From a virus, in the IMG/VR virus record IMGVR_UViG_3300042547_000361, positions 1 to 64,000 of that record: DNA of 64,000 nt. One strand, given 5' to 3'. Under the pieces are notes generated by a model. It made no database searches, had not been told where the DNA came from, and was given only the letters and a program-made list of their open reading frames with translations. Numbering within the stretch: the stretch's first letter is position 1; the number at the start of each line of letters is the position of its first letter. Shown one piece after another: positions 9,470 to 48,948 of the stretch. A program made the translations under genes and the position numbers.

Positions 9470-9660
9470 TCCAAGATTTCGCACGCGTACTGCGCGAGAA
9501 GATACGCATTGACATGAACAACTACGCCGATGACTTGGCAGGCGGAGCATGTCGCTCATTTGATGAGTACCAAAAACTCTGCGGGGTGATTCAGGGTCTT
9601 GCCCTTGCAGAGCGTTATGTCCTTGACCTTGCAGAGAAAGTAGAAAAAGCCGATGAGTGA
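9466..9660 (+). CDS. Small conserved-type head-region protein (64 aa)
   Basis: Start overlaps the portal stop as ATGA and the end overlaps the next gene by 8 bases. The peptide has an N-terminal helix, a central DEYQKLCGVIQGLALAER and a charged tail. Similar short helical proteins often sit behind the portal in aquatic phages. No function can be named; a capsid assembly accessory is plausible from position. Confidence 0.6.
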   Translation: MIQDFARVLREKIRIDMNNYADDLAGGACRSFDEYQKLCGVIQGLALAERYVLDLAEKVEKADE

Positions 9661-10087
9661 AATTCTCTTGCCCCCAGGCATCAGCCTGCCCCCGACCATC
9701 CAACCAAAAGCCGCGCCTGAAAAGGAAGCGCCTGCGGAAGAGAAAGCCACCAGCTTACCTCTGCCGACTGGGTGGAAATTACTCTGCATAGTGCCTGACG
9801 TTTCAGAGAAACTCGACGGCACGGAGCTGGACTTGGTCAAACCAACGTCCATACTCAAACAAGAAGAGCACGCTACTACGGTGTTGTTCGTCTTGAAAGT
9901 CGGCCCCGACGCGTACAAAGACGCGTCCAAGTTTCCCAACGGCGCTTGGTGCAAGGAAGGCGACTTTATCTTGGTGCGTACATACTCTGGCACGCGGTTC
10001 AAGATATATGGCAAGGAGTTCCGGCTGATCAATGACGATCAGGTGGACGCAGTGGTGCAAGACCCGAGAGGAATAACCCGCGCATAA
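9653..10087 (+). CDS. GroES-like co-chaperonin candidate
   Basis: A 144-residue protein. From about residue 42 it reads GWKLLCIVPDVSEK, then VLFVLKVGPDAYKD, then GDFILVRTYSGTRFKIYG and a final INDDQVDAVV. These follow the Cpn10 order: opening strand, mobile loop region, GxVxxVGP.A, GDxVL, and a closing strand. An N-terminal Pro/Glu-rich extension of 40 residues is extra. It would modify host GroEL to fold capsid proteins, as T4 gp31 does. Its place between portal and scaffold supports this. Remote similarity only. Confidence 0.6.
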   Translation: MSEILLPPGISLPPTIQPKAAPEKEAPAEEKATSLPLPTGWKLLCIVPDVSEKLDGTELDLVKPTSILKQEEHATTVLFVLKVGPDAYKDASKFPNGAWCKEGDFILVRTYSGTRFKIYGKEFRLINDDQVDAVVQDPRGITRA

Positions 10088-22600: not shown

Positions 22601-25600
22601 AAGCCCCGGTGAGTTTTACGCTGGAGCCAACAGCACAGGCACAGCCGCTGCCCCTGTATTCAGAACAGCCGCACCAGCACCTCGCACTCTTTATTGGGTA
22701 GGCGGCACAGGCAACTGGTCATCCACAACCAAGTGGTCTACTTCATCAGGGGGCGGCTCTGGTGCGGCTATCCCAACATCTTTAGACGCAGTCAATTTTG
22801 ATTCGCTGTCTAACGCTACAGCCTACACAGCCACGATTGACGCTGGTGTAACGCTTGCCCGATGCGCATCATTCACAATGGCTGGTCCTGCATCTGGCAA
22901 CGTGACCTTTGCAGGCTCAGTGGGCATTGCCTTCCACGGCAACGTGAGTTTTGCTGCTACGGGCATTACCCGGACTTACAATGGCGCAATGCAATGGGCT
23001 GGAAACAGCAGCTACACGTTTACGACCAACGGGGTGGCGCTAACAAGCTCAATAACTGTTGTTGGTGTTGGCTCTACATGGACACTTGGTAGCGCATTAA
23101 ATAATGGAACATTTTCAATTAGTGTGGATAGCGCAAGTTTTAGCACATCCCCAAGCAATTACTCAGTTTCCGCTTCTGCTTTAGGTTCTGGTGGTTCAAG
23201 CGTAAGATCAATTGTATTAAACGCAAGTACATTAACTTTTACCTCATCACCAATTGATTTCAACGGAGCAAACTTAACTTTTAATTCTGGAACATCATCA
23301 ATTATAGGCACGGGTGGATCATTTAGTTTTTTTGGTAACAATCAAACTTTTAATAACGTCAGCTTTACAAACGTTGCCGCAACATCTATCAGTGTTAATG
23401 GCGCAAACACATTCAACACACTGTCGTTTGCTGGCCGCACATCAGTTGGCATCAACGCAGTCACATTTAACGCCAATCAAACCATCAGCACCCTGACGCT
23501 CAACGCCGGAACAGCCGCTGCCTTCCGCACGTTCTTGGCGTCTGACACCATCGGCACAACCAGAACTTTAACCGTAACCACCCTGACCGCAGGTGCTGCT
23601 GACATTGACTTTCGTGACATCACCATTGCTGGCGCTGCTGCTCCGATCTCAGGCACTCGGTTTGGTGATGCCAAGGGTAACAGCGGGATTACATTTGATG
23701 CGGCAAAGACGGTTTACTACCGACAGACAGGTTCGGCAAACTGGGGCACAACAGGTACAGGCTCTTGGTCTGCTACGTCTGGCGGTGGTTTTGATGCAAC
23801 TCAATTTCCGCTTGCCCAAGATACAGCCATTTTCCCCGCTGCAACGTATCCAGCATCCGGATCAACAACCACAATCAACGCCAACTACAACATTGGCACG
23901 ATTGATATGTCGCTGCGTACCGGCAACACAATGACGCTGGCAACGGGTACTACCACACCTCAAATCTACGGCAACTGGATCAATGGGACGGGGACAACGC
24001 TGACGGGTACGGGGGCAATGACCTTTGCTGGACGAGGAAGTCAGACGATTACGAGTGCAGGGAAGACGTTTACACAAGGGTTCACAATCAACACCCCCAG
24101 TGGCTCTGTAACATTGCAGGACGCGTTTGTAACGAGTGCAGCTTCTAATTTTGCTCACACACAAGGTACTTTTGATGCAAACGGGTTTAATTTCACACTC
24201 AGCAGTTCCGGTTCCGCTGCATATGGCGTTTCTGGTACAACTACGAGAACAATTGCTATTGGCTCTGGAACATGGTCTATTGCCACATCTGGAACTGCGT
24301 TCAATGCAGTGACAGCCACAAATTTAACCGTCACCGGCACGGGCACAATCAGTTTAACCAGCGCATCGGCCAAGACATTTGCAGGCGGCGGCATATCCTA
24401 CTCCGGCATCACCCTCAACCAAGGCGGTGCAGGTGCGCTGACCATCACAGGCAACAACACTTTTAAAGACATCACCAACACTTACAGTGCAACGGGTGCA
24501 ACGTCAATCACCCTTGGCGCTACAACCCAGACCCTGACAAACCCTTGGACAGCAACAGGCGCAGCAACACGGGTTCTCACGGTAAGTGGTACATCTGCCG
24601 CATCTCCGGGCACTTTGATCTTCTCTGGCTCAGGTACAGCCGCCAATGTGGACTACCTGACCGTCTCAAACGTCCGTGCTTACCCTTTGGTCGATGACTG
24701 GTATGCAGGGCCAAACTCTACCAACAGCGGGTCACTGGGCTGGTACTTTGTAGCCGCAGGCGGCACAGTCTATTCCGTCACCATTACCGAGACTGGCACA
24801 GGTACAGACAGCATCACAGCCAGGGTAACACTGCTTGGCACAATTTCAGAAACCGGCACGGGCACGGATTCAGTTTCGGCTGGCTTACAGTACCTTGGTG
24901 CCATCACCGAGACTGGCACGGGAACAGACTCTATATCGGGCACATTCCGGCCCAGCGCAACCATTACAGAGACAGCTACTGGATCGGATGTAGAGTCTGC
25001 CATCCTTGCAGCAATAGCTCGGATAAACGAAACCGCTACCGGCTCTGATGCTGACAGTGCACAGTACACCACTAACCCCAGTGTTAGTGAATCGGCAACG
25101 GGAACGGACACGGACAGCGCCAAAATGACGGCAAAGTCCACGATCAGTGAAAACGCTACCGTAACAGATGCAGCATCGGCATTGGCAACGCTTTTAGCTG
25201 CTGTCTCAGAGGCTGCAACAGCAACCGATCTTATCTCTGCAATTCAGGGGTTGTTTGCTGCGATTCTTGAATCTGCCACTGGCACAGACAGCGTTGACGC
25301 ACCTGGGAGTACCTACAACCCATCATTGAGTGAGCTTGCTACAGGAACAGACAGCGTATCGGCTTTGGTTGTCTTGGTATCTCAAGTTGCCGAGTCTGCC
25401 ACTATCAATGACGTAACGGCTGCGTTTAAAGCGTATTTGGCGGAAATCATCGAAGCCGCTTCCGGTGCCGATACTGTTTTTTCGCAGTTTGTTGCCCGTT
25501 CTGTCATCAGTGAAGCTGCCACTGGCACAGACACAGACTCTGCAAAATTTACCGCGCAGGCATCCATTGCTGAGACAGCCACTGGAACTGATACGGAGTC

Positions 25601-26531
25601 TCCCCGGTATATTGCAAACCCTGTGATAGCCGAGACTGCCACTGGCACAGACACAGACTCTGCCAAATACACCGCCCGGTCAAACATAGCCGAGACTACC
25701 ACAGGCACGGACACCCTCAATACAAACGCTACGCTCAACTCCAGTGTTGACGAAACCGCAATTGCTCAAGAGATTGTGCGTGGTTTTATGGTGGCGGCTG
25801 TACAGATTTCAGAGTCTGCCACTGGAACGGATCAAATCAGTGCCCTTCGCGCTCTTGCGGCTGCGGTTGTAGAAACGGCAACAGTAACTGATTCCCTGTC
25901 TGCCCAAGCTATCTTCAGGGGTATCCTGCAAGAAATTGCCACCCTGACTGATTCTGTTAATGCTCCGGGGTCAACGTACAGCGCTCCGATCATAGAGCTA
26001 GCTACGCTACAGGATGTGGTGCGGGCAGCAGCTACCTTCCCAGCATCTTTGACAGAGACGGCCACAGGCACCCAGACCAACAGCGCAGCATTTATTCCCT
26101 CTGCCCAAGTCTTTGAGACTGCCACAATCACTGATGTAAACAGCGCCTTGGTTGCTTTTGCTGCGCGGGTAGCAGAAAACGCAGTCATCACAGATCAAGT
26201 ATCTCCTCCGGGAAGTATCTACAACCCAGTGGTTCTGGCTGTTGCCCAACTTGTGGACAATGTCAGCCCAGCGGGGAGCATCTACAACGCCCCCGTCTTA
26301 GAGTCAGCAGCAATCACAGATGCCCTGATAGGGGCGTTCCTGTGGAACTTGATCGACGATAGCCAGAACCCGAACTGGGCCAATATAACCGACAGCCAGA
26401 CACCGGGTTGGGTAGAAGTCGGTACATCCCAAGGCACGGGCTGGGTAACGATCCCAACGCCGCAGAATCCCGGTTGGTCAAACATAGATGACAGCCAGCC
26501 CCCGAACTGGCAAAATATCACTAACGTGTAA
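19638..26531 (+). CDS. Giant repeat adhesin / tail fibre protein (2297 aa)
   Basis: Three repeat scales are visible. Residues 4-1700 hold five modules of about 340 residues, each opening with a tyrosine of a YW..-G..NW type motif (Tyr at 4, 344, 680, 1019, 1360) and filled with Thr/Ser/Gly-rich strands (TLTVNA, TFNNL, NQTINGTL), a beta-solenoid pattern. From residue 1716 there are about 26 tandem 20-residue units of the form ETATGTDSxSA. The last 57 residues carry an 11-residue Trp repeat (W.NI.DSQ.PG). AT-rich patches alternate with GC-richer ones inside the modules. It is most likely a surface fibre that contacts the host. Confidence 0.75.
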   Translation: MDRYWVGGTGTWNTSSTTNWSATSGGGSGASVPTVADSVFFDQAGTYTVTMTGALACLDITVSAGTVTFATGTTPTLNVRGSMSLLAGTVWSSTGTITFSSTTTGRTVTTNGVTISGVIDFNGVGGGWTLGSALSTSALANIGVTVTAGTFDTGNYNLTARFFSSSNSNTRTVNLGSSTITLNNDTATSISFLTSTGLTFNAGTSSFVITTPGTVNGGGQTFYNISFTSTSSANVRAITGANTFNNLAITGPSSAGVVNVTFAAQQTINGTLSTTGTAGNRRVFFASATYGISQDLVVNSTPSLTDADFRGLYVRGTAAPISGTRIGNRGECRGITFDAPKIVYANLVLSSFYENIWATSSGGTPSLVNFPLPQDTAIINNASGNSGFSIGFNINYIPTLDMSLRTTALSFSFGNTTTAYGNFVAGSGVTFSGSNSVTFSGGTTQTITSAGKTFSCPITVDTYGGTVQLADALNIGSSSLTVTNGTFTTAGYAVTAGTLSSSNSNVRTINLGASVLTLTLSGGSPVNFTTSTNLTLNTGTSQVTLTSSSAFNFHGGGLIFYNVALTGTSSVTHNFTGANTFNNLTYTAPASVGLTGCNFSANQTINGTLTCAGASAVRRIFLRSETIGTPRTLTVNAISATDCDFRDIILAGTASGASPTRAGNCGGNTGITFPAAKTVYWNLAGAQNWSATAWAPGSGGLPDINNFPLAQDTAVFDEAAGSVTGTITINAAWNIGTFDASLRTSAMTLSTSTNAPVVYGDWKFGTGVTSSSTTGTINFVKNGTQTITSNGVQFGCPVTINHPLANVQLADALSFAATRTLTLNAGTFDAVTYNVTTSQFANNSSSNTVRMGSGTWTLFGSGTVWNMNGSPTLIVGTSTIVLSDTSTSSRTFVGGSLYYNKLTIGGATGTSTLTINNNNTFGELAATKTVAHTIDFGTTIQTFGKWSVTGTAGNVVTITGTSTTNVIAGPAVTGVDYLAMGTWGISTTSPGEFYAGANSTGTAAAPVFRTAAPAPRTLYWVGGTGNWSSTTKWSTSSGGGSGAAIPTSLDAVNFDSLSNATAYTATIDAGVTLARCASFTMAGPASGNVTFAGSVGIAFHGNVSFAATGITRTYNGAMQWAGNSSYTFTTNGVALTSSITVVGVGSTWTLGSALNNGTFSISVDSASFSTSPSNYSVSASALGSGGSSVRSIVLNASTLTFTSSPIDFNGANLTFNSGTSSIIGTGGSFSFFGNNQTFNNVSFTNVAATSISVNGANTFNTLSFAGRTSVGINAVTFNANQTISTLTLNAGTAAAFRTFLASDTIGTTRTLTVTTLTAGAADIDFRDITIAGAAAPISGTRFGDAKGNSGITFDAAKTVYYRQTGSANWGTTGTGSWSATSGGGFDATQFPLAQDTAIFPAATYPASGSTTTINANYNIGTIDMSLRTGNTMTLATGTTTPQIYGNWINGTGTTLTGTGAMTFAGRGSQTITSAGKTFTQGFTINTPSGSVTLQDAFVTSAASNFAHTQGTFDANGFNFTLSSSGSAAYGVSGTTTRTIAIGSGTWSIATSGTAFNAVTATNLTVTGTGTISLTSASAKTFAGGGISYSGITLNQGGAGALTITGNNTFKDITNTYSATGATSITLGATTQTLTNPWTATGAATRVLTVSGTSAASPGTLIFSGSGTAANVDYLTVSNVRAYPLVDDWYAGPNSTNSGSLGWYFVAAGGTVYSVTITETGTGTDSITARVTLLGTISETGTGTDSVSAGLQYLGAITETGTGTDSISGTFRPSATITETATGSDVESAILAAIARINETATGSDADSAQYTTNPSVSESATGTDTDSAKMTAKSTISENATVTDAASALATLLAAVSEAATATDLISAIQGLFAAILESATGTDSVDAPGSTYNPSLSELATGTDSVSALVVLVSQVAESATINDVTAAFKAYLAEIIEAASGADTVFSQFVARSVISEAATGTDTDSAKFTAQASIAETATGTDTESPRYIANPVIAETATGTDTDSAKYTARSNIAETTTGTDTLNTNATLNSSVDETAIAQEIVRGFMVAAVQISESATGTDQISALRALAAAVVETATVTDSLSAQAIFRGILQEIATLTDSVNAPGSTYSAPIIELATLQDVVRAAATFPASLTETATGTQTNSAAFIPSAQVFETATITDVNSALVAFAARVAENAVITDQVSPPGSIYNPVVLAVAQLVDNVSPAGSIYNAPVLESAAITDALIGAFLWNLIDDSQNPNWANITDSQTPGWVEVGTSQGTGWVTIPTPQNPGWSNIDDSQPPNWQNITNV
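24783..26340 (+). repeat. 60 bp coding tandem repeat, about 26 units
   Basis: Encodes 20-residue units with consensus ISETATGTDSxSAxxxxxxx. Units differ strongly at DNA level, so the array is old or recoded. A few units contain an extra residue (APGSTYNP type). It forms a long regular stalk within the adhesin. Confidence 0.7.
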
Positions 26532-30288: not shown

Positions 30289-30791
30289 TGCTTTCACTAA
30301 TTTCGACTCTCGGTGGCCTGCTGATCAGCGGCCTGCCCAAACTGCTTGAGTTCTTCCAAAACAAAGCAGACCAAAAGCACGAGCTTGCACTGGCCCGCCT
30401 GCAAAACGAGCGCGAACTTGCTCTGGCTGCTCAGGGCTACGCCGCCCAGCAGAAGATCGAGGAAATCCGCACCGATCAGGTTGCGATGCAGACCGAGGCG
30501 CAGATGACCGAGGCGGCACTCAAGCACGACGAGAAGGTGCTGGATAAGGCCAGCCAATGGGTCGCCAACTACGTCGGCACCGTGCGCCCGACAGTGACCT
30601 ATATTTTCGTCATTGAGTTGGTAGTGATCAATGGCTTCATGGCCGCATACCTGTGGAACCACCCAGAACTGATCAAAAGCATTGACGATGTGGTCAAGTA
30701 CTCTGGCCTGATCTTCTCCAGTGACGAGATGGCAATGCTGGGCGGTATCATTGGTTTCTGGTTCGGTTCTCGTCAGTGGAGCAAGAAGTGA
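30288..30791 (+). CDS. 3TM holin-like protein (167 aa)
   Basis: N-terminal hydrophobic helix (MLSLISTLGGLLISGLPKLL), a charged helical middle (25-95), then two membrane helices (about 100-125 with YIFVIELVVINGFMAAYLW and 143-163 with LGGIIGFWFGSRQW). This is the layout of the 3TM holin family found in gene transfer agents and phages. It lies directly before the endolysin, which it would release across the inner membrane. Confidence 0.65.
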   Translation: MLSLISTLGGLLISGLPKLLEFFQNKADQKHELALARLQNERELALAAQGYAAQQKIEEIRTDQVAMQTEAQMTEAALKHDEKVLDKASQWVANYVGTVRPTVTYIFVIELVVINGFMAAYLWNHPELIKSIDDVVKYSGLIFSSDEMAMLGGIIGFWFGSRQWSKK

Positions 30792-31291
30792 AACTAAGCA
30801 AGGCCGCCGCTGCGATGATGCACAAGTACGAGGGGTACAGAAACCGCCCGTATTTGTGCCCAGCGCACATGTGGACTATAGGATACGGCCATGTGCTGTA
30901 CCAAGACCAGATTCGCCTGCCGATGGCACGAGTGGACAAGCCTGTGCTGATGATCCGAAAAGAAATGCCGTTACGACCGGAGGACAATCGTGTCTGGGCC
31001 AAGCAAGAAACTGATGATCTATTCGACGCTGACATCGCATCTTTTGAACGCGGTGTTCTTCGTCTTGTTCCCGGCGTTGTTGGGCATCAAGGCCGCTTTG
31101 ACGCTCTGGTCTCTTTTGCATACAACGTAGGGCTGGGCAATCTCCAGCGCAGCACGGTGCGGATCAAGGCAAACCGTGGAGAGTGGGAAGGGGCGGCAGA
31201 CGCCTTATTGCTTTGGAACAAGGCCGGGGGTAAAGTGTTTGTAGGGCTGGACAGGCGTCGGAAAGACGAACGCGCTTTATTTCTGTCGTAG
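30788..31291 (+). CDS. Endolysin, GH24 lysozyme
   Basis: GTG 30788 overlaps the holin-like stop as GTGA and follows GGAGCAAGAA. The active-site region KYEGYRNRPYLCPAHMWTIG then YGH gives catalytic Glu15 and Thr30. At the position of T4 lysozyme Asp20 there is Cys24, a known natural variant in this family. About 167 residues, no signal peptide visible, so export depends on the holin. It cuts the MurNAc-GlcNAc bond in peptidoglycan. Confidence 0.9.
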   Translation: MKLSKAAAAMMHKYEGYRNRPYLCPAHMWTIGYGHVLYQDQIRLPMARVDKPVLMIRKEMPLRPEDNRVWAKQETDDLFDADIASFERGVLRLVPGVVGHQGRFDALVSFAYNVGLGNLQRSTVRIKANRGEWEGAADALLLWNKAGGKVFVGLDRRRKDERALFLS

Positions 31292-31298
31292 GATTACT

Positions 31299-33302
31299 AT
31301 GCCGCTTCAAAAACTTGAGTTCAGGCCGGGCGTCAACCGTGAATCGACCACGCTGGCCAATGAAGGCGGCTGGTTTGAATCCGACAAGGTGCGCTTTCGT
31401 TCGGGCTTTCCCGAGAAAATCGGCGGCTGGACCAAGGATACAGGCTCGCAATTTAACACGGGGACAAGCCTTCAGCCCACTACTGGCTCTTTCTGGGGTG
31501 TCTGCCGTTCGTTGTGGAACTGGCTTAACTTGGCGGGCTACAACCTGCTGGGTGTTGGCACCAACCTGAAGTACTATATTCAGAGCACGGGGGGTGGTAA
31601 CTTTTACGACATCACCCCGATCCGCAGCACAGACACAGTAGGTTCTAACGCTTTTACCACTAACGGCACCACGACCGTACAGGTCAACGACAACGCGCAT
31701 GGTGCGCAGGCTGGGGATTTTGTCACCATCTCTGGTGTGGCGGGGCCTATCAACGGCATCCCGGCGGCTGATCTGAACCGAGAGTTTCAGATTGTCAGCA
31801 TCGTCAGCAACAACGCCTACACCATCGTCGTTAGTACCGCCGCAACATCTTCCGGCACCACTGGTGCAGCCACGTTCACATATCAGCTTGGCACAGGCTC
31901 GGATATCTACACGGTCGGCGTGGGCTGGGGTGCTGGCGGTTGGGGCGGCGCTACCACGGGGTACGCAAGTACAGGTTGGGGCTCGCCTTCTGCGTCGGGT
32001 CTTGGTGTTGGCATCCAGCTTCGTATATGGACCGAGCACAATTTTGGCGAAAACCTGATCATCAACCCCCGTGGCGGTTCAATGTTTTTTTGGGCGGTTA
32101 ACCCCAACCCCACCCTTTTTGATCGGGCGCAATACCTTGGCCCCTCTGCGGTCATCACGCAAAAGAACTACGTTACAGGCTCGGGCACCACAACGGTGAC
32201 GGTGGATGCGACATGCCCAACAATAGTCAATCAGGTGCTGGTCTCCGACTCGTCGCGGTTTGTCATTGCGTTTGGCTGTAACGACCCAACCGGCGTGTAC
32301 GCCACGATTGCTCAAGACCCCATGCAAGTTCGCTGGTCAGATCAAGAGTCGTACAGCATATGGACCCCGGCCATCACCAACCAAGCGGGCGGTTACCGGC
32401 TTAGCTCCGGTTCACAAATTGTCACCGCGCTGCAAACCCGGCAAGAGATTCTTGTGTGGACCGACGCGGCTATCTACTCCATGCAGTTTCTGGGCGCTCC
32501 GTACGTCTGGGGCTTTCAGATCATGGGCGACAACTTGTCCATCATCAGCCCCAACTCTCCGGTCACGGTCAACAACATTACGTACTGGATGGGCACGGAC
32601 AAGTTCTACATGTATTCAGGCCGTGTAGAGACGCTGCCCTGCGCTTTGCGCCAGTACGTGTTTGATGACATCAACCTTGAGCAAGGCTACCAAGTCTTTG
32701 GCGGTACCAACGAGGGCTACAACGAAATCTGGTGGTACTACTGCTCAGCCAACAGCACGACGGTGGACAAGTACGTCATTTACAACCACCTTGAGCGCAC
32801 CTGGGCGTACGGCTCACTTGCACGCACGGCTTGGCTGGACAGCCCGCTCCGAGTCTCGCCTATGGCTACCGGCTACGGGGGCAACCTTGTGTATCACGAG
32901 CAAGGTAACGACGATGGCACAACCAACCCGCCAAGCCCGATCTACTCGTACGTGCGGTCCTCCGACTTTGACATCGGTGACGGCCACAACTTTGGTCTGG
33001 TCTGGCGCATCATCCCCGACGTTACGTTTGATGGCTCCACGGTCAATGCTCCTGCGGTGAACTTTACCGTCCTGCCCCGCCAAAACCCTGGTGCCAACTA
33101 CGGTACTTCAGATAACCCTTCTGTGGCCAGCACGCAAAACTACGCTACGCAACGCACGTACGCGGTACAGCAGTTTGACCAATATGCATATGTGCGGATT
33201 CGCGGTCGTCAGATGGCGTTTCAGATCAGCTCCAGTAACCTTGGGGTGGCCTGGCAGTTGGGCGCTCCCAGGCTCGATGTACGTCCTGACGGAAGGCGTT
33301 GA
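31299..33302 (+). CDS. Tail/neck structural protein (667 aa), P22 gp10-like candidate
   Basis: It begins MPLQKLEFRPGVNREST and has EGGWFESDKVRFRSGFPEKI, a start common to large neck proteins of podovirus-like phages. Repeated blade-like strands follow (YLGPSAVIT..., ILVWTDAAIYSMQFLG, TYWMGTDKFYMYSG), suggesting a beta-propeller as in P22 gp10. An inserted FCCH-like domain lies at about 120-190. No enzyme motif. Probably part of the short tail hub. Confidence 0.55.
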   Translation: MPLQKLEFRPGVNRESTTLANEGGWFESDKVRFRSGFPEKIGGWTKDTGSQFNTGTSLQPTTGSFWGVCRSLWNWLNLAGYNLLGVGTNLKYYIQSTGGGNFYDITPIRSTDTVGSNAFTTNGTTTVQVNDNAHGAQAGDFVTISGVAGPINGIPAADLNREFQIVSIVSNNAYTIVVSTAATSSGTTGAATFTYQLGTGSDIYTVGVGWGAGGWGGATTGYASTGWGSPSASGLGVGIQLRIWTEHNFGENLIINPRGGSMFFWAVNPNPTLFDRAQYLGPSAVITQKNYVTGSGTTTVTVDATCPTIVNQVLVSDSSRFVIAFGCNDPTGVYATIAQDPMQVRWSDQESYSIWTPAITNQAGGYRLSSGSQIVTALQTRQEILVWTDAAIYSMQFLGAPYVWGFQIMGDNLSIISPNSPVTVNNITYWMGTDKFYMYSGRVETLPCALRQYVFDDINLEQGYQVFGGTNEGYNEIWWYYCSANSTTVDKYVIYNHLERTWAYGSLARTAWLDSPLRVSPMATGYGGNLVYHEQGNDDGTTNPPSPIYSYVRSSDFDIGDGHNFGLVWRIIPDVTFDGSTVNAPAVNFTVLPRQNPGANYGTSDNPSVASTQNYATQRTYAVQQFDQYAYVRIRGRQMAFQISSSNLGVAWQLGAPRLDVRPDGRR

Positions 33303-39234: not shown

Positions 39235-42200
39235 ATGGCACAGTACCTCACGCTCCCCAACGGAAGTCAGTTTGAAATTCGACAGGGCGAAACGCGAGAA
39301 CAAGCGCTGTCCAAAGCTTTGCAACAGTACCCAGAAGCCTTTGGGTTCGGGCAAGCAGCGCCCACAGAAACGCCCGAGTCTGGGTTTGTGCCAGCGCTCA
39401 AGTCTGGCATCTCCTCGCTCAAGTCTGACGTAGCCGCGCTGGCCGGTCGTACCGGCATCATGGATCAGGCTGCGGCAGAAAAGTATATCCAAGAGCAGGC
39501 GGACTACCAAAAGCGTACGTTCAAGCCCACCGCCACGTTTGGCGAAGCGCCGGTTACTAAAACCCTGGAGCTGCTTGGCGGCTCCTTTCCCTACATGGCC
39601 GCGCCCATCGCCGCTGGTGCCCTTGCACCGGCAGGCGCTCTTGCACTGGGGGCAGCAGGCGCAGCGTCAGCGGCGCAGTTCACGGGTTCCAACCTATCCC
39701 GGCAGATGGGCGAGGGCAAGGCGCTCGGTGAGACCGACATCACGGCTGCCGCCCTTGCGGCTGTTCCCCAGGCTGCGCTCGATGCGCTCAGTCTCAAGAT
39801 GCTGCCCGGTATTCGCAGTATTTTTGGCCAAGCAGGCAAGGAAATTTCCAAAGACGTTGCCCAGGCAATTGCCCAGCAGAGCGTCAAAGAAGTTGCCAAG
39901 GACTACGCGGTTGCCACCGGCAAGGCAATGGGCACTGAGGGTTTGACCGAGGTCGGGCAGCAGGCGCTTGAGCGTTTGCAAGCCAGTTTGTCGTTGACCG
40001 ACGAGAAGGCTCGGGACGAATACCTTGAGAGCCTGATCGGCGGCGCGGTGTTGGGCGGCGTGCTGTCCCCTGCCGGTCGCTACGTCGAGCGTGGTCGCCA
40101 AGCCAAGAAGGAAGAGGCAGACACCCTTGCTGCGGCAATGAAGCAGCGCGAGGCTGACGCCAAGCAGCGCGAAGCAGCACTGACTTCCCCCGAGGGGCGG
40201 CTTGCGTTTGTTGAGGACTACGAGGCTCGGCAGGCCCGGTTCCAAGAACTCAAAGACATAGCCAAGCCCGGCAAGGACGCCACGCCGCTGCAGCAGGCCG
40301 AGTACACCGAGATCAAGAAGGAAAAGAATGACCTGGGCAGGAGCCTGTACCGCGACAGCGCCGAGTACAAAAAGGCGGTGCCCATAGCCCAGCAGCTCAG
40401 AGAGCAGCGCCGCGTCGATGCGATGACGCCCCAAGAGTATCAAATGGAGCAGCTCGGGCTTGCCCCAGGACTTGCCGCCCCGCCAGCAGCACCGACACCG
40501 CCCTCGGCAACGGACGAGCTGTTCAGCTTGTACACCCAGGGTGCGCCTGCTACTACTGCGCCCAAAGCTGAACCTGTTTCACCCGTCAATCAGTACGTAG
40601 CGCAGCAACTTAATCTGGCCAGCCAAAGTTCGTACCTTAAACCGGAGGCGGCTGACTACGCTGCGTACCTGTTGCAAAACCCCGAGATGGCTGCGCAGAT
40701 AACAACGGAGACGCCCATGCCGGGGCTAGCCCGTGCCGAGCGCAACGCCGTTGCTGGCATGGTTAAGCTGCAACTTCAAACGCAAGCGAAGGAGGCGCTG
40801 CAGCCTCGCGTTGAAGACTTGGCCGGGCAAGTACCCAAGAAGGCTGTTGGCAAGCGCAAAGCCCCTGATTACGAGGCGTACCTGCAAGACTTGGAGGCCA
40901 TCGACTTTGATCGCCGCGAGGGCCAGACAGCCGAAGACATTGCCAACATGGAGAAGCTGCAACGTCCTACCGACGTTACCGCTCAAGGCGAGATGTTTGG
41001 TCAACCTGCGCAGCAGACGGTATTGGGAGAAGCGCCAAAGACACGCCGCGAGCTGCTTGCTGATTTGCGTGTTGCGCGTGTTGCGGGCGACCGCAACGCC
41101 GCCGAAGCCATCATCAACAGCCTGCGAGCAGTAGACAAACGAGACGAAGCCGACGCAGCACGCGTTGCGGGCGGCCAGCAAAAGTTTGTTCTCAATGGTG
41201 AGCAGCGCGAAGAACTCAGTGCTCAAGGCTACAGCGAAGAGCAAATTGACGAAGTAGAAGCCAAGGCGCAAAAGTCGCTAGGCCAAGCAATCGGCGCAGG
41301 CCAGACGCCGCTGTCCACAGCCATTCAACAAGTTGCATCTGAAAGCCGTGCTGATGCGTTTTCTGAAGTCGTGGACTTGGTCAATCGCTTTAACAAGGGG
41401 GCGGCAAAGCAAGAGCAGTTAGATGCCGCTAAAGAGCGGGTTGTGTCCGGGCTGCTCACAGACATCCGGCAATCACGCCAAGAGCCGTTGACCGAGGAAG
41501 AAACGCGTGACATTACGCGCAATGCAAACGAGTTGCTGCGCGAGCTGACCGAACGCTTTGGCGACACGCGCTCGCTGTCTCAAAAGGGCAAAGACCTTTT
41601 TGTACCCGCCCAAACTCGCACAGGCGAATTTCGTACCGATGAAGTGCCCGGCACAGGCTATCCGACAGTTGAGTCTCGTGTTCCGGGTCGGCAGACTTTT
41701 AGCAGCCCATTTGCGGCGGCGCAATCTATTCGTGAAGGGCTTGAGGAGCTGCGCACCCGCGCCATCACCTCGGCGCAAGCACCAAGCTATACACGCACGT
41801 TTACGCCCCGCGAAGTCAGTGTTGATGCCGCAGAGGCGCAGCTTAGCCGTGAGTTAGCCAAAGACCCGCAGACGCACAGCCCCGAGCAGCGCCGCTTGCT
41901 GGAAGCAATTGGCGACAACGTGCGCATGATGATGCGCCCTGAGACCCGGCAGGACGTTTCAAGCTGGCTTTACGACTTGGCGCGTGATCCCGCTACTGTG
42001 CCCACAGACAAAACGCAGGCCGTACGCGATGCGTTGCAGATGGTCGAGCAAGCCAAGTTGTCGGATCAAGAGCAGCTTGGGTTGCCGTTAGGCCCGGGCA
42101 AGAAGCTGCGGCAAGAAGCGCCGCAAGTGTTGAATAAACCAACGCCCGTGCAGCCAGGGTCGTTCAGCCAAGTCAGCTTTGAGCCTGAGTACGAGGCCGC

Positions 42201-45200
42201 TACGCCGACCGTTTTCAACAGCTACGCAGAACTCAAGCGATACCTTGCATCAGACGCGCTGCAAGAGATGCGGTCTGCCATTGGTTTGGCGCGGCCAACA
42301 ATAGATCGACTTGAGCAGCGGGTCAAACCGTTTGCGTTTCGTGTAGCGCTGTACCTGTCAAAGCTTGACGCACTCAAAGCCCGAGTTGTTGCGCTTGACA
42401 AGCGTGTGCAGGACATGCACGTTACTAAGCGCGAGGAACTTGAAACGCTCAAGAAAATGTCTGCGGCGGATGCGGCGGCAGAGACCCGTGCGCTCAATGA
42501 AGCGCAGCGCAATCTTCAAGAGCTGCGCAAACGTATGGCGGAGTTGGAAGCGCCGCTGCGCAAAGAATTGGAGCCGTTGCTCAAAGAATTTGACACAGCG
42601 CAAAAGCAGTTTGATAAAGCAGTTGCAGCAGAAGAAGCGTTGACGGCAGCAATGCTCAGCAACAACCAACTGTTTGGAGATCGTGAGCTTTTCGCAATCC
42701 AGAAGCTGCACAACGTGCAGCAACGGATGAAGAACGCTCGCAGCAAACTGCACAAAGAGTTTCAAGAAGATTTTGGCAACGATCCCCGCAACCTTGCGCG
42801 GACGATGCGGGAGTTTAAAGAAAGCGGGAAACAAGGCGCGTTTAACGAGCAGCTTGCAAAAGCGCACAAAGAGTTGTACGACGTATTTTTTGATACGCGC
42901 AAAGACGACGTTGCCATACAACAGTACTTGAAAACAGCCGCCAAACTGGACGCGCAGATTCAAGAGCAGGCGGGCAAGATTGACGCGCTGGGGGAGAAGC
43001 TACTTAACGCAGGTGTTGCACTTGAGGAAGCGCGTAGCAGCCAACTGGAAGCTGCGGAAAACCGCGACGAAATTCTTGATGCACGGCAACAGTCGCAAGA
43101 AGCGCAGCAGATACTCAGGGAGCTGGAAGCCAAACAACAAGCGCGTCTGGACGCGCTTGAAAAGCTGGAAGTAGAGCTTGGCCTTACACGCACGGAGATT
43201 CCGCATCGCGTTAGCGAAACGACAACCGTGGCTGAAGTGCTGCGGGCATCGACCGCGTCAGAGAAAGCGCTTATACGGCAACGCAACGAAGCCGAAGCCA
43301 AACTTAACGAGGCGGCCGCCCCGGTAAAAGCGCTTTTCGCGTTTGACCGTCAGCGCACGGAAACACGTACCAAAAAACCCGAGACCGCTGCGCAAACCCA
43401 GGAACGGGATGCTCAGCGGCAACGCCTGCTTGAAGCAATCGGGCGTGATCCGGCCAGCTTTGATGGCGAGCGCGTCTCGTTTGAAAAACGCCGGGGATTG
43501 ATAGAAGAACTTGGTACGGCAGAAGAAACGCGTGGAGAACTTGAAGCGCTGATTGCTGCGGCAGATGAAGCCGTTCCCTATTTGCAACAGCAGATTGCGG
43601 AAGCCGAGAAAGCGCTCAAGAGCATCGACAAAGAAATTGCGCAAGTAGAAGCGGCCAACAAGAAACGTCCGCGTAGCTTCCAAGCCAAACTGGAACAGCA
43701 GTCGGCAATGGTGGCGCTGGGGCCACTGCGCGAGGTGCGGGATCGACTGGCTAAGAGTTTGCAGCCGTACCCACCAAACAGCCGCCCGAAAGACCGTACG
43801 GTTCGCAGTCTGGTCGAAGACTTGGCCGCACACGAGCGTGAGAAAGCCACAGCGCAAAGCAACTTGGCCACGCTTGAAGAACGCAAAGCTGATTTGGAAG
43901 CGCTGTTTTCTGACGACCCAGAAGTGCAGAAGGCGCGTACGCAAGCCATTGACAAGCGCATTGCCAAGGTCGAGAAAAACATTGAGAACCAAAAAGCTTC
44001 GCTCAAAGAAAAGGGGATCAAAGCGAGCACGCTCGACTCAAGGAAGCGCGAGCTGCGTAAGTCCTTTAAAGAACTGCAACGCCTTATGGCGCAGCGTTCG
44101 GCCAAGTTTGGTATCACCCGCAAAGCACTGGCAGATGTTGGCAGGCCCGAGACCGCTGCGGCGGAAGAAGGCGAGCGCTTGGGCGCTCGCAAAGTGGGCC
44201 CTATTGTCAGGCCCGTACGCACCGCAGGCAACATACGCACAGGTGTGGCGGAGACTACCGAAGAGCGCAAGCTCAGCACACGCTCCAAAATAACTCAGGG
44301 CGGTAAGACGAAGACGGAAACGTCCAAGCAGGCTCAAGCCGCTGGCAATGTCGCTGCTGAAGCGCGTGCAGCTCAGCAGCCAGAAAAAACTGCAACGCAG
44401 TTGGCAGTAGAAGAGCTGCAACAGCAGCAGCAAATACTGGCGGCTAAAGAGCGCCTTGAAACAAGTATCAGGGTGCAGCTTGCTGACCTTGACATCCGGC
44501 TCAATGCGCTGCGGCGCAGCCAACGCCCCAACGTGCTTTTGATTCGTGATTTGGAAGCACAGAAAAGTGTGTTGCAGCGCGATTTGGTTGCCGCACGTAT
44601 GGATGTGGAGCGCGAAGGTGCGTTGGCGGCAGAAGCTCAAAATATTGTTGACACCCAGTCCACGGTTGGCGGAATTTTAAGTGCGAGCTTCCCCGACGCT
44701 GCTGCGCAAACGCCCGAAGAAACCGTGCCCGACGACACCGCAGAGGCGTTGCAGACCGGGCTCAAGTCTCTAAGCAAAGACGAAGTTAAAACACTTGAAA
44801 CTGCGTACGGCGCTAAAAAGCGCACGGACACTTTCTTGTCCAAGCTGCAAAAAGACGTTGTTGATATGGTCAACAACGGCGGTAAAGCCGTGGCCAAGGG
44901 CATCCGCAACATCATCAAAAAGCTGTCAGAAGGTGTGCTTGCAGTAGCGATGATTTTCAACCCGCAGTTCAACGCTACTAACTTTAGCTTTGATCTGCCC
45001 AAGGCGTACAGCCAAACTATCACCGAGAAGGTCAGCATAAAGGCGCAGGTGCCCGCATCTGCGCGGGAGCAGATGAGCCCGCTGGCACAAATGGTCTACG
45101 AGAACATGGCCCCCACCGCCAAGGCGTCCGGCAAAGGCTTTGGTATTGTGGACAAGGTCAACGGCTCAATCCACTTCTTTAACAACGACGGTAGTGTGTT

Positions 45201-48200
45201 GGTGCAAGGCCCCGCGCTTATGGGCAAAGATGTGGGCGATGTATTGGGCAAGTCGTCGCTTGAGGGCGGCCCCAAGATCACCCCTGCCGGACGCTTTACG
45301 TTGGAAGTCTCTAAGGATGATTTCTACGGCACTTCGTTCAATTTGCTTGAGACGTTTGACAGCACGGGGTACGTTGCCATACATCCGGTGTATCTAGGCA
45401 ACCTGAAAGAAAATCGGCTTGGGCGGCTGCAATCGCCAGAAGCTACGGACAACCGCGTCAGCTACGGCTGCATCAACACCACAAAAGAAATGTTTGTGGA
45501 CAAGTTGGCCCCCAATGCCGACGCGCTAAATGGTGGCATGCTGTTTGTGTTGCCCGATGCAACTGAGCGTACTGCGGAAATGTTCCCGGAAAAAGTTGAG
45601 ACGGTGACCAAGACCATCTCCGGCACCGAGCAAACTGCCAAGGCCGAAAGTCGCTCGATTGTTGGACGGGAAGAAAAGCTGTTCGAAGGCAAGACGCTGT
45701 TCCAAGTTGCGACGGAGATCAACAACTCACCACGCGTTGAAGTTGATCCGCAAAAGAGCGCCGCTACGCTGATGGCCAGCATTGCCGCTACTTCTAAGAC
45801 CCCCCTGAACAGGGTGGTGGCGGAGCGGCTCAAAGGTCTGCTTGGCGTGACCGAAGTTCGGATTGCCAAAGATTTGCGCAACGACCAAGGCGGCGCTGTG
45901 TACGGCTCCGCTGCGATTGATGGTTCGCGTATTACGCTTGATGCTGACAGCGGCCTGAACGAGCAGACCATTCTTCACGAGGGCGTTCACGCGGCAATCG
46001 AAAGGGTGTTGCGTGCGCCTGAAAACATCATCACACCAAACCAGCGCAAGGCAAAACGCGAACTAGAAGCGCTGTACAAAGCGTACGCTGCCGACGCTGC
46101 TGCGCCAAACGACAACGCCAAAGAAAGCATAAGCGAGTTTGTAGCTGATGCCCTGTCTGACCCCGCAGTTCAACTGTACATGCAGGGCAAGAAGTGGACG
46201 CTCAAGCACATGTGGGAGTCGTTTAAAAACAGCATACTCAGCATGCTGGGGATTGAAACCCCTTCTACCATGCTGGAAGCTACCTTGGCGGCAGCAGACA
46301 GGTTGATGCTGACGGTGCCGCGTCCGACAGCCAGGACTACAGAAAGCCTGTCTAGGAAAAAACCGAAGTACGCTTCGCCTGAGTGGGCCAGTGCCGGGGA
46401 GGACATCGGCAAAGTTGTGGCGCGGCAGCGCACCTGGGGTGACAAGATCAAGGCCAACGCCACTGGGCTGGCCTTTGAGACCCAGCTTGTGGATCGCTTT
46501 GCTGCGTTTGAACGGTTGCGCAAGTACATGCCCGAGCAGATGGGCACCCAGATGATGTACTACCTGCGCATGTACGACCAGCGCATGAACTTTGTCTCGC
46601 AGGCTGTGAGCAACGGCGCTCTGCGGTTGGCTGAAAAGACACGCCCTGACGGCAAGACCGAGTACCTCATTGAGAGCAAAGAGGGGGCCAACATCGGCAA
46701 TGTTGTGCAGATTCTGCGCGATGCGCAGCCGTTTGTCGGAAACGCCGAGGCTGTGAACCAAGCCTTTACGACCTACCTTGCCGCGCTGCGTGCCGACCGT
46801 GTGGGGCTGGCCAAGCTCAACTTTGGCGGCAGCGTCACGCAAGAGATGCTGGACCGCACTATGCGGATGGTCAACGGCAACGACAAGCTCAAGGATGTCT
46901 TTGAGAAAGCCCGCCGCGAGTACAACGCATACAACCGCGATCAGATCGCAATGGTTGCCGCCACGGGCGCTATCTCCAAAGAGACGGAAGCAGCGCTAAC
47001 TCGCACCGAGGACTACATCCCGTTCTACCGTGCGCAAAACGGTGTCGTGGAGCTGCTCATTGGCGGCGAAGCGCCCATGCGTATTGGCAGCATTGCTGAC
47101 CAGCCGTACCTGCAAGAGCTTGTTGGCGGCGACCAACCAATCTTGGACTTCATGACCAGCTCAGTGCAAAACACCAACATGCTGGTGGATATGGCGCTGC
47201 GCAATCTGGCGACCAAGAACGCTGTGTTTGAGCTGGTTAACCTGGGCGCTGCCAAGATCGTGGCTGGCAAACCGGCTGGCCGGGATGTGGTGCAGTTCAA
47301 GGTGGACGGCCAGGACCGCTACGCTGTGATCTCGTCGGAGAAGGTCACCATTGGCGGCAAGACGTTTGAGACGGGCGTGCCCGCTGACATCTTGGTCAAG
47401 GGCATGGAGGGCATCCCTACGCAGATGCCGTTCCTGTTCCGCGCTATGGCGATGCCTGCGCAGCTTCTGCGCAAGGCCGTGACGCTCAGCCCCCTGTACA
47501 TGGCCAAGCAGTTGTTCCGCGACTCACTGGCCGCTCCGATTACCTCCGGTGCCAACTTTACACCCGTCATGGGGGCGCTGCGGCAGATCGGCAAAGAGTC
47601 TGGCAAAGCGCTGGAGACACGCGGCATTACTGGTGGGCAGTACATGACCGGCAGTGCCGACGACATCACCAAGATTTTGCGTGACATATCGGATGGCAAG
47701 CCGGGCTGGATGTCGGCACTGAGCAAGGCCGAGGCTATCGGTATGAAGGCTGACGCTCTGACGCGCCGGGCACAGTACAACAGCTACATTGAGCAGGGCA
47801 TGTCGGAGATGGAGGCCACGCTCATGGCGCTGGAGTCCATGAACTTTAACAAGCGCGGTGCCAGCCCCAGCATCCACGTAGCCAACGCACTGATCCCGTT
47901 CTTCAACGCCCAGATACAGGGCTTGAACGTGCTGTACAAGGCGATGAGCGGCAAGATGCCGTTCAACGACAAGCTCAAGATTCAGCAAAAACTCTTGATG
48001 CGTGGCGGCATGATGGCGGCAGCATCGCTGCTCTACGCCGCGCTGATGGACGATGATGAGGCTTACAAGAACGCTACGCCGGACCAGAAGTACGGCAACT
48101 GGTTTGTGCGCGTGCCCGGTGTTGACCAGCCGATCCGCGTGCCGGTGCCGTTTGAGATTGGCTACATCTTCAAGGCGCTGCCCGAGGCGCTGTACAACAG

Positions 48201-48948
48201 CATGACCGACAAGCACGGCAACGAAGATGCGGTCAAGGCGTTCAAGCAAATACTGCTGCAAAGCGTTCCTGGCGGCTCCAGCTACGGCATACCGCAGATC
48301 ATGAAGCCTGCCATCGAGGCGGGCCTGGGCAAGTCGTTCTACACCGGGCGTGACATCCTGTCTGCGCGTGAGAAAGAGCTGCTGCCTGAAGATCAGTTCC
48401 GCGCCAACACCGCCGAGATTTCCAAGGTGGTGGGCAAGGCGATGGGCGTATCCCCCATCGTCATGGAGAACCTGGTGCGCGGCTACACCGGCACGATGGG
48501 CTTGGCGTTCCTGCACGCACTGAGCCTGGGCGCTCCCAAGTCGGAGTCCCCCGAAGCTGCGGTCAAGCGCCTGTCTGACTACCCGATCATTGGCGGCTCG
48601 TTCCAGCCCAACGATGCCGGGGGCATAACCAACGCTGTGTACGAGCGCTTCAACGAAGACATCAAGGTGCGCAACAGCTACAAGAAGATGGTCGAAGAGG
48701 GCCGGTCAGCCGAAGCCAAGGAGCTGCTCCAGCGCCGGGGCAACGAGATCATGGAGGCCGAGATTGCCGATGTGTTCAAGCAGAACATGAACAAGCTCAC
48801 CCAGGCCGAGCGAGCGATTGCGGCGTCCAGCCTAACCCCCGATCAAAAGCGCAAGCAGCTTGACGAGCTGCGCAAACTCAAGACGGCCATCTCCCAGACG
48901 ATGCGCGAGACCGCCGACAAGACGGTCAAGCTGTCATCCCCCCTTTGA
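39235..48948 (+). CDS. Giant polyvalent virion protein with L,D-transpeptidase-like and HExxH domains (3237 aa)
   Basis: The largest gene in the window. Residues 60-260 are Gly/Ala helices; 300-1900 are mostly charged coiled coil. At about 1966-2105 there is a YkuD-type L,D-transpeptidase domain with His2050 (AIHPVY) and SYGCIN with Cys2079. At 2245-2305 there is a zinc peptidase motif HEGVH (His2248, Glu2249, His2252), with SEFVAD Glu2301 as possible third ligand. The last 850 residues resemble phage polyvalent-protein tails (LPD38-like, PIRVPVPFEIGYIFKALPEA). It is probably ejected into the host and remodels peptidoglycan or cuts proteins there. The start has only a weak ribosome site. Confidence 0.75.
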   Translation: MAQYLTLPNGSQFEIRQGETREQALSKALQQYPEAFGFGQAAPTETPESGFVPALKSGISSLKSDVAALAGRTGIMDQAAAEKYIQEQADYQKRTFKPTATFGEAPVTKTLELLGGSFPYMAAPIAAGALAPAGALALGAAGAASAAQFTGSNLSRQMGEGKALGETDITAAALAAVPQAALDALSLKMLPGIRSIFGQAGKEISKDVAQAIAQQSVKEVAKDYAVATGKAMGTEGLTEVGQQALERLQASLSLTDEKARDEYLESLIGGAVLGGVLSPAGRYVERGRQAKKEEADTLAAAMKQREADAKQREAALTSPEGRLAFVEDYEARQARFQELKDIAKPGKDATPLQQAEYTEIKKEKNDLGRSLYRDSAEYKKAVPIAQQLREQRRVDAMTPQEYQMEQLGLAPGLAAPPAAPTPPSATDELFSLYTQGAPATTAPKAEPVSPVNQYVAQQLNLASQSSYLKPEAADYAAYLLQNPEMAAQITTETPMPGLARAERNAVAGMVKLQLQTQAKEALQPRVEDLAGQVPKKAVGKRKAPDYEAYLQDLEAIDFDRREGQTAEDIANMEKLQRPTDVTAQGEMFGQPAQQTVLGEAPKTRRELLADLRVARVAGDRNAAEAIINSLRAVDKRDEADAARVAGGQQKFVLNGEQREELSAQGYSEEQIDEVEAKAQKSLGQAIGAGQTPLSTAIQQVASESRADAFSEVVDLVNRFNKGAAKQEQLDAAKERVVSGLLTDIRQSRQEPLTEEETRDITRNANELLRELTERFGDTRSLSQKGKDLFVPAQTRTGEFRTDEVPGTGYPTVESRVPGRQTFSSPFAAAQSIREGLEELRTRAITSAQAPSYTRTFTPREVSVDAAEAQLSRELAKDPQTHSPEQRRLLEAIGDNVRMMMRPETRQDVSSWLYDLARDPATVPTDKTQAVRDALQMVEQAKLSDQEQLGLPLGPGKKLRQEAPQVLNKPTPVQPGSFSQVSFEPEYEAATPTVFNSYAELKRYLASDALQEMRSAIGLARPTIDRLEQRVKPFAFRVALYLSKLDALKARVVALDKRVQDMHVTKREELETLKKMSAADAAAETRALNEAQRNLQELRKRMAELEAPLRKELEPLLKEFDTAQKQFDKAVAAEEALTAAMLSNNQLFGDRELFAIQKLHNVQQRMKNARSKLHKEFQEDFGNDPRNLARTMREFKESGKQGAFNEQLAKAHKELYDVFFDTRKDDVAIQQYLKTAAKLDAQIQEQAGKIDALGEKLLNAGVALEEARSSQLEAAENRDEILDARQQSQEAQQILRELEAKQQARLDALEKLEVELGLTRTEIPHRVSETTTVAEVLRASTASEKALIRQRNEAEAKLNEAAAPVKALFAFDRQRTETRTKKPETAAQTQERDAQRQRLLEAIGRDPASFDGERVSFEKRRGLIEELGTAEETRGELEALIAAADEAVPYLQQQIAEAEKALKSIDKEIAQVEAANKKRPRSFQAKLEQQSAMVALGPLREVRDRLAKSLQPYPPNSRPKDRTVRSLVEDLAAHEREKATAQSNLATLEERKADLEALFSDDPEVQKARTQAIDKRIAKVEKNIENQKASLKEKGIKASTLDSRKRELRKSFKELQRLMAQRSAKFGITRKALADVGRPETAAAEEGERLGARKVGPIVRPVRTAGNIRTGVAETTEERKLSTRSKITQGGKTKTETSKQAQAAGNVAAEARAAQQPEKTATQLAVEELQQQQQILAAKERLETSIRVQLADLDIRLNALRRSQRPNVLLIRDLEAQKSVLQRDLVAARMDVEREGALAAEAQNIVDTQSTVGGILSASFPDAAAQTPEETVPDDTAEALQTGLKSLSKDEVKTLETAYGAKKRTDTFLSKLQKDVVDMVNNGGKAVAKGIRNIIKKLSEGVLAVAMIFNPQFNATNFSFDLPKAYSQTITEKVSIKAQVPASAREQMSPLAQMVYENMAPTAKASGKGFGIVDKVNGSIHFFNNDGSVLVQGPALMGKDVGDVLGKSSLEGGPKITPAGRFTLEVSKDDFYGTSFNLLETFDSTGYVAIHPVYLGNLKENRLGRLQSPEATDNRVSYGCINTTKEMFVDKLAPNADALNGGMLFVLPDATERTAEMFPEKVETVTKTISGTEQTAKAESRSIVGREEKLFEGKTLFQVATEINNSPRVEVDPQKSAATLMASIAATSKTPLNRVVAERLKGLLGVTEVRIAKDLRNDQGGAVYGSAAIDGSRITLDADSGLNEQTILHEGVHAAIERVLRAPENIITPNQRKAKRELEALYKAYAADAAAPNDNAKESISEFVADALSDPAVQLYMQGKKWTLKHMWESFKNSILSMLGIETPSTMLEATLAAADRLMLTVPRPTARTTESLSRKKPKYASPEWASAGEDIGKVVARQRTWGDKIKANATGLAFETQLVDRFAAFERLRKYMPEQMGTQMMYYLRMYDQRMNFVSQAVSNGALRLAEKTRPDGKTEYLIESKEGANIGNVVQILRDAQPFVGNAEAVNQAFTTYLAALRADRVGLAKLNFGGSVTQEMLDRTMRMVNGNDKLKDVFEKARREYNAYNRDQIAMVAATGAISKETEAALTRTEDYIPFYRAQNGVVELLIGGEAPMRIGSIADQPYLQELVGGDQPILDFMTSSVQNTNMLVDMALRNLATKNAVFELVNLGAAKIVAGKPAGRDVVQFKVDGQDRYAVISSEKVTIGGKTFETGVPADILVKGMEGIPTQMPFLFRAMAMPAQLLRKAVTLSPLYMAKQLFRDSLAAPITSGANFTPVMGALRQIGKESGKALETRGITGGQYMTGSADDITKILRDISDGKPGWMSALSKAEAIGMKADALTRRAQYNSYIEQGMSEMEATLMALESMNFNKRGASPSIHVANALIPFFNAQIQGLNVLYKAMSGKMPFNDKLKIQQKLLMRGGMMAAASLLYAALMDDDEAYKNATPDQKYGNWFVRVPGVDQPIRVPVPFEIGYIFKALPEALYNSMTDKHGNEDAVKAFKQILLQSVPGGSSYGIPQIMKPAIEAGLGKSFYTGRDILSAREKELLPEDQFRANTAEISKVVGKAMGVSPIVMENLVRGYTGTMGLAFLHALSLGAPKSESPEAAVKRLSDYPIIGGSFQPNDAGGITNAVYERFNEDIKVRNSYKKMVEEGRSAEAKELLQRRGNEIMEAEIADVFKQNMNKLTQAERAIAASSLTPDQKRKQLDELRKLKTAISQTMRETADKTVKLSSPL

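Follow-up and report, generated by a model that had tools for sequence, protein, structure and literature searches.

A conserved YkuD-fold domain behind a signal-peptide-like segment in a giant, probably ejected phage protein

What does an enzyme domain of the L,D-transpeptidase type do inside a giant phage protein? The question is raised by a 64,000-nucleotide stretch of viral DNA (the window), positions 1 to 64,000 of the 68,326-base IMG/VR record IMGVR_UViG_3300042547_000361, in which one giant gene houses a YkuD-like domain followed by a zincin-like metallopeptidase domain (Table 1). We lean towards the view that the giant protein is ejected into the host and that, where the DNA enters, its YkuD enzyme alters stem peptides or the links between proteins and the wall. 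This suggests that these phages rework the host wall from inside during entry.

We found that residues 1941-2132 of the giant protein matched the Pfam family YkuD (PF03734) with an E value of 6.3e-4 and 20.8 bits, and the best score among its relatives reached 9e-6. Residues 2017-2089 matched phrog_38499, a PHROG family of unknown function (E 1e-4). When tblastn was used, secreted bacterial proteins were recovered at E values of 1e-12 to 1e-15, two of them annotated as L,D-transpeptidase. An alignment of 86 rows, of which 61 come from bacteria and 25 from viruses, the window among the latter, has His2050, Cys2079, Asn2081 and three arginines invariant throughout. The single YkuD domain was modelled from the alignment with AlphaFold2, giving a predicted local distance difference test (pLDDT) score of 96.2 and a predicted template modelling score of 0.91. 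This model was compared with the PDB using Foldseek in place of a two-domain model, which had returned mostly noise (top match 8da2, an L,D-transpeptidase, E 0.09). Ranks 1 to 24 all belonged to the L,D-transpeptidase/YkuD family, its carboxypeptidase and amidase cousins included, with a best E value of 2.3e-5 and a range of 2.3e-5 to 9e-4 over ranks 1 to 21. The template modelling (TM) scores were modest (0.36-0.45 by query length), consistent with a divergent YkuD subfamily. Alignment of profiles by hhalign against canonical YkuD paralogues gave a probability of 97.3 and an E value of 2.3e-11, with the catalytic histidine and cysteine in register. A phmmer search of the domain against PDB sequences found no match, nor did a narrow-profile scan of the genome contigs. 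Profile searches against the PDB returned mostly beta-propellers through a repeat artefact and were discarded.

The YkuD-like domain of the original prediction, made from the sequence alone, is thus borne out beyond chance by Pfam, tblastn, AlphaFold2, Foldseek and hhalign. His2050, the SYGCIN stretch with Cys2079, the HEGVH motif at 2248-2252 and Glu2301 lie exactly where it had placed them. The range it gave for the two domains was nucleotides 45100-46160; YkuD starts further upstream, at about nucleotides 45010-45055. Its proposal that a profile search and structure prediction would find this fold held for the YkuD part, in which sequence, profile and predicted fold agree on the active site. 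As judged from alignment and model, residues 1941-2112 are a divergent YkuD-fold cysteine-enzyme domain with catalytic histidine and cysteine in place. The family phrog_38499 can be named YkuD-like.

LdtMt1, LdtMt2, Pgp2 and B. subtilis YkuD have the same fold and the same catalytic His and Cys columns. The phage domain differs from these canonical enzymes in having about 8-11 extra residues between His and Ser with an invariant arginine, in reading SYGC, and in being embedded in a phage protein. The LDTGo 1,3-cross-linking subfamily of Alpha- and Betaproteobacteria is likewise a divergent YkuD-like group from overlapping taxa (PMC10864386). Membership in it was ruled out, since its His245-Cys264 spacing is 19 residues compared with 29 here; its structure 8QZG fell outside the 50 best fold matches.

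The best L,D-transpeptidase matches among PDB folds include the true cross-linkers LdtMt1, LdtMt2 and M. abscessus Ldt2, which favours a role in making 3-3 or other cross-links after entry, whether to seal the wall, to mark it or to block superinfection. We consider this quite unlikely. Nothing favours resealing, marking or exclusion of a rival over cleavage, exchange or tethering, nothing points to a time after entry, penetration is the role of those virion wall enzymes covered by the literature examined, and the few copies ejected would hardly alter cross-linking in bulk. Among viral fold matches an LPD-containing phage protein ranked best (TM 0.86), and a phage Tlde1-domain protein was also present. 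Tlde1 is a type VI secretion effector, a delivered enzyme of the L,D-transpeptidase fold that acts on target-cell peptidoglycan as an LD-carboxypeptidase and by D-amino-acid exchange (PMC9638812). Unlike the phage domain, it is a small toxin that stands alone and is paired with an immunity gene, it has the strict HX14-17[S/T]HGC motif, and its delivery system is another one. An injected wall poison of this kind, disturbing wall synthesis in the infected cell, has a low probability in our estimate, since the similarity is one of general fold and the phage would gain no evident benefit from it early in infection.

Remodelling at entry would place the YkuD domain outside the inner membrane, and the giant protein carries a candidate for a segment that could do so. 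About 60 residues N-terminal to the YkuD core lies a conserved signal-peptide-like segment at residues 1893-1909, within the wider stretch given in Table 1. In the middle region of the window protein this segment is the most hydrophobic, and none of 175 windows reaches its value; a few relatives have a less conspicuous one. Each of the 30 giant phage proteins examined has such a segment 51-65 residues ahead of the conserved DK motif (90 in one; median 61), with basic residues first and then a hydrophobic core that in most cases closes with N-P. In the signal peptides of 61 secreted bacterial relatives the core sits at the same distance from this motif, with a median of 64 residues. The net charge on the N-terminal side is +2 in both the phage segments and the bacterial signal peptides, and the hydrophobicity is similar, at 2.1 for the former and 2.5 for the bacterial cores. 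No such segment was found before the zincin in two relatives without YkuD. Sequence comparison indicates that segment and YkuD travel as one module.

The ratio of non-synonymous to synonymous substitution rates (dN/dS) was determined against three related loci. For YkuD it was 0.06-0.09 against L003 and L011, the two nearest, and 0.17 against L012. For the segment it was 0.03-0.08 and 0.18, respectively, a constraint comparable to that on YkuD. Against the two nearest loci the values of both rank among the lowest in the protein. These values bear on whether the module, a captured secreted gene, is kept as a relic or structural spacer for folding or packaging rather than for catalysis. While the segment does resemble a bacterial signal peptide left in frame, the active-site His and Cys, the three Arg and the Asn are invariant in all phage copies, YkuD is constrained (0.06-0.17 over the three comparisons), and the sequence of the segment is kept across divergent phages, conservation which argues against a relic. 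This explanation therefore seems to us very unlikely.

The giant protein is probably packaged in the virion and ejected with the DNA, as analogy with related proteins indicates: it contains LPD38, its gene lies among the late genes, and there are two informative counterparts. LPD38 has been described as a phage-type polyvalent domain (PMC5512222), and in the window protein it stands with several unrelated domains within one late protein, as in polyvalent proteins. A further match, to phrog_9854, covers residues 2557-3220 (E 5e-32). The LPD38 polyvalent proteins (PMC5512222), the 'DarB-like' proteins of JC1 and Bcep22, and Parlo gp81 are likewise giant multidomain late proteins with LPD38 near the C-terminus, and Parlo gp81 has a zincin domain in common with the window protein. 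The first counterpart is gp69 of the podovirus JC1, a 4,515-residue LPD38 'DarB-like' protein for which mass spectrometry of virions recovered 51 unique peptides (PMC9144972). The second is a 2,318-residue protein of the E. coli phage-plasmid pSTEC648_2 (CP061838.1, L016:11755-18711), which contains the same YkuD (phrog_38499, E 2.5e-18) and whose N-terminal region resembles the virion RNA polymerase family (phrog_2206, E 3.7e-14). Its gene adjoins that of a GH104 wall enzyme, with an internal-virion-protein gene nearby; a search of this DNA against E. coli RefSeq genomes gave no match. Membership of the window protein in the DarB-type antirestriction group was ruled out because Pfam found no DNA methylase or helicase in it.

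The giant gene lies late and the window also encodes an endolysin, as would be expected if the protein acted in the producing cell, for example together with the endolysin at lysis, and was not ejected. However, one relative with LPD38 is abundant in virions (PMC9144972), and the N-terminus of the E. coli version is common to a family of ejected RNA polymerases. We regard action in the producing cell as highly improbable. Ejection with the DNA also has a parallel in T7 gp16 (PMC8954989). This too is a large virion protein that is ejected and acts on the wall through one of its domains, and it has putative transmembrane segments, but its enzyme is an N-terminal lytic transglycosylase and not an internal YkuD.

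We then reach the preferred reading, remodelling of the wall around the entry site. During genome entry the segment would engage the inner membrane or be translocated with its N-terminal side in and its C-terminal side out, whereby the YkuD domain would face the periplasm. The YkuD cysteine would then attack the meso-diaminopimelate carbonyl, either in a stem peptide or where a protein is joined to peptidoglycan, and transfer the bond to water or to another amine, and the wall and outer-membrane tethers would be loosened or remodelled around the entry channel. The adjoining zincin would most likely trim the polyprotein. Cleavage, exchange and tethering are all known chemistries of the YkuD fold. 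Within this reading, cleavage or exchange has slightly better than even chances, and net bond formation (tethering or cross-linking) slightly worse than even.

The bacterial relatives bear on which bonds might be involved. At least 595 bacterial stretches encode relatives of this YkuD, and these are small proteins with N-terminal signal-type segments. Of the 30 viral contigs bearing it, 28 have it inside open reading frames (ORFs) of 1,454-5,524 residues. In a tree, 18 phage copies formed one clade with full support by the Shimodaira-Hasegawa-like approximate likelihood ratio test (SH-aLRT), and all 24 giant-protein copies may be of one origin. From these comparisons, the phage YkuD appears to be captured from, or to have common ancestry with, a secreted proteobacterial enzyme family.

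We found that the gene directly upstream of the bacterial YkuD ends in [KR]x[PDYA]R[NHG] at 46 of 56 loci. The same tail occurs at one of 56 loci in a downstream window of the same size and in 9 of the remaining 5,480 ORFs (Fisher P 4e-20). This value overstates independence because the loci are partly related, and some of the matches, though few, may lie in spurious frames. The tail-bearing partners are otherwise unrelated and comprise Lpp/OprI-type alanine-zipper lipoproteins, haemagglutinin-type secreted proteins and small low-complexity proteins; examples lie directly upstream of the YkuD relative in L048, L050, L073 and L082. L,D-transpeptidase enzymes tether or release such proteins (PMC12729407, PMC8263019), and the lipoprotein and haemagglutinin-like partners point to protein-wall tethering. 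The pattern fits a role in which the bacterial YkuD relatives tether proteins to peptidoglycan with the tail as recognition signal. We found no description of the tail in the open-access library searched, and the bacterial YkuD with its tailed partners is possibly an undescribed protein-to-peptidoglycan anchoring system. A tail common to unrelated kinds of partner makes this a concrete and cheap hypothesis, testable without any phage. On one contig classed as viral, L044:6672-8130 holds an apparent bacterial cassette of a tailed lipoprotein and a stand-alone YkuD, probably flanking host DNA.

If the phage enzyme kept such a substrate, remodelling at entry would take a narrower form. YkuD would cut outer-membrane-peptidoglycan links, or re-use host tailed proteins, and the envelope could thereby be crossed or reshaped. 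The frequency of tail-bearing genes directly ahead of the bacterial relatives (46 of 56) and the Lpp/OprI-type or haemagglutinin-type nature of the partners favour this version, as does DpaA among the fold matches. DpaA (LdtF) detaches Braun's lipoprotein from peptidoglycan (PMC8263019, PMC10653827) and is thus a YkuD-type fold acting on a protein-peptidoglycan link, although it ranks only 24th with weak overall similarity (E 0.017). Against this version, no tail was seen in any phage giant-protein locus fetched, about 30% identity need not keep a substrate, and the bacterial chemistry is itself deduced from gene context. We find it rather unlikely. The still more specific proposal, that phages inject an L,D-transpeptidase-fold enzyme by way of an internal signal segment to edit outer-membrane-wall tethers and that this enzyme derives from an undescribed bacterial tail-recognising tethering system, is unlikely as a whole.

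Several points weigh against remodelling at entry in general. The Pfam YkuD score of 20.8 bits lies 2.6 below the gathering cut-off of 23.4. The strict L,D-transpeptidase motif is HX14-17[S/T]HGC (PMC9638812), whereas here the gap from His2050 to Ser2076 is 25 residues and SYGC replaces SHGC; the domain is therefore filed as a divergent YkuD-fold enzyme and not as a proven L,D-transpeptidase. The virion location of the window protein is carried over from a family member. The short core of the segment (about 11-13 residues) could be an ordinary buried helix or the relic of a captured gene's signal peptide. Finally, the phage giant-protein loci lack a cognate tail, and a search of phage ORFs gave spurious frames and the L044 cassette only.

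The original prediction had also proposed a zinc-peptidase site after YkuD and that two enzyme domains act from one ejected protein. The first proposal stands at the level of motif: HExxH and a downstream glutamate, as in gluzincin-type metallopeptidases, are present and are kept in homologues, with Parlo gp81 keeping the HExxH part. In the two-domain AlphaFold2 model the two zincin motif helices were predicted with medium confidence (pLDDT 52-87). Pfam gave no significant family match for the region, and weak matches to ATLF, SprT-like and DUF6261 were at chance level or under cut-off and were not used. The second proposal, taken as two wall enzymes acting together, found no support, since the zincin is of the polyvalent-protein class and is swapped while YkuD stays. 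Between the window and L003, identity is 83% in YkuD and 91% in the C-terminal part but only 26% in the zincin, which by sequence comparison is a clean domain swap; the zincin has been exchanged in L012 as well. Among relatives the slot is filled by unrelated domains of HExxH, HExxxH or other type, with HEGVH, HELVH, HELFH, HEVxGH, HE[IV]GH, HHELGH, HEVGVH or RadC/JAB, and in some no recognised motif. Iyer et al. (2017, PMC5512222) proposed that the zincins of phage polyvalent proteins cleave the polypeptide to process it. Because of this class and the swapping among close relatives, processing is a likelier role for the HEGVH zincin than action on the wall.

Other architectures were seen in the zincin slot and beyond. 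L041:10553-11407 is a RadC/JAB metalloprotein domain in this slot (E 2e-7). The 5,524-residue ORF of L039 has four separate HExxH sites. A 4,424-residue relative (L015:6905-20176) seems by eye to have DarB-like methylase and helicase parts; it also shows HESLGH far downstream, and its C-terminal region resembles that of the window protein by descent.

Wall enzymes in polyvalent proteins and delivered effectors of the L,D-transpeptidase fold (Tlde1) are already known. Polymorphic toxins include L,D-peptidase domains (PMC3482391), and at least one large protein of a podovirus already has an L,D-transpeptidase domain named by automatic annotation. The wall domains given in the main text of PMC5512222 are lysozyme, transglycosylase and DD-peptidase, and transpeptidase or YkuD is not mentioned there. 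What is new is the recurrent YkuD module with its internal signal-like segment, the swaps of the adjoining domain and the tail-bearing partners of the bacterial relatives. The virion wall enzymes in the literature examined are hydrolases (lysozymes, transglycosylases); if our reading is true, a bond-exchanging enzyme in an ejected protein widens the options of a phage on the wall at entry. The topology of a giant ejection protein also becomes testable, because the internal segment predicts a periplasmic part.

Table 1. Features of the window, with positions numbered from its first nucleotide
Feature	Position	Strand	Details
Endolysin	30776-31291		encoded in the window
Tail stabilization / virion structural protein	31299..33302	+	phrog_3287 E 4e-52; tblastn to phage 'stabilization protein' genes
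Giant polyvalent-type protein gene	39235..48948	+	3,237 residues; houses YkuD and zincin domains
Signal-peptide-like segment	44890..45012	+	residues 1886-1926: AKGIRNIIKK, core LSEGVLAVAMIF, then NPQFNAT
YkuD / L,D-transpeptidase-fold domain	45055..45570	+	residues 1941-2112; Pfam, alignment, AlphaFold2, Foldseek, hhalign
Catalytic-type His2050 (in IHPVYLG)	45382..45384	+	invariant, 86 rows; aligned to canonical His
S-Y-G-C-I-N, Ser2076 to Asn2081, catalytic-type Cys2079	45460..45477	+	Cys and Asn invariant
Zincin-like metallopeptidase domain	45775..46269	+	residues ~2181-2345; HEGVH 2248-2252, Glu2301 (SEFVAD)
LPD38 domain (PF18857)	48055..48591	+	residues 2941-3119, Pfam E 6e-31

The giant ORF is the final long gene of the late, structural block. 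By its predicted gene content this is a podovirus-type late region, because terminase, portal, tail-stabilization, tail-fibre and endolysin genes are present, the first four noted within the source record. The phage collection searched held no near-identical DNA. Within the giant protein, residues 1216-1591 (nucleotides 42880-44007) form a long coiled coil, likely a helical spacer, whose match to an SMC-like profile (E 1e-6) falls far under the curated cut-off. A 2,297-residue protein encoded at 19638-26531 (+) gave no match in Pfam or PHROG. Directly after the portal gene, positions 9653-10087 (+) encode a 144-residue protein with a GroES-like match (phrog_3188, E 7e-8).

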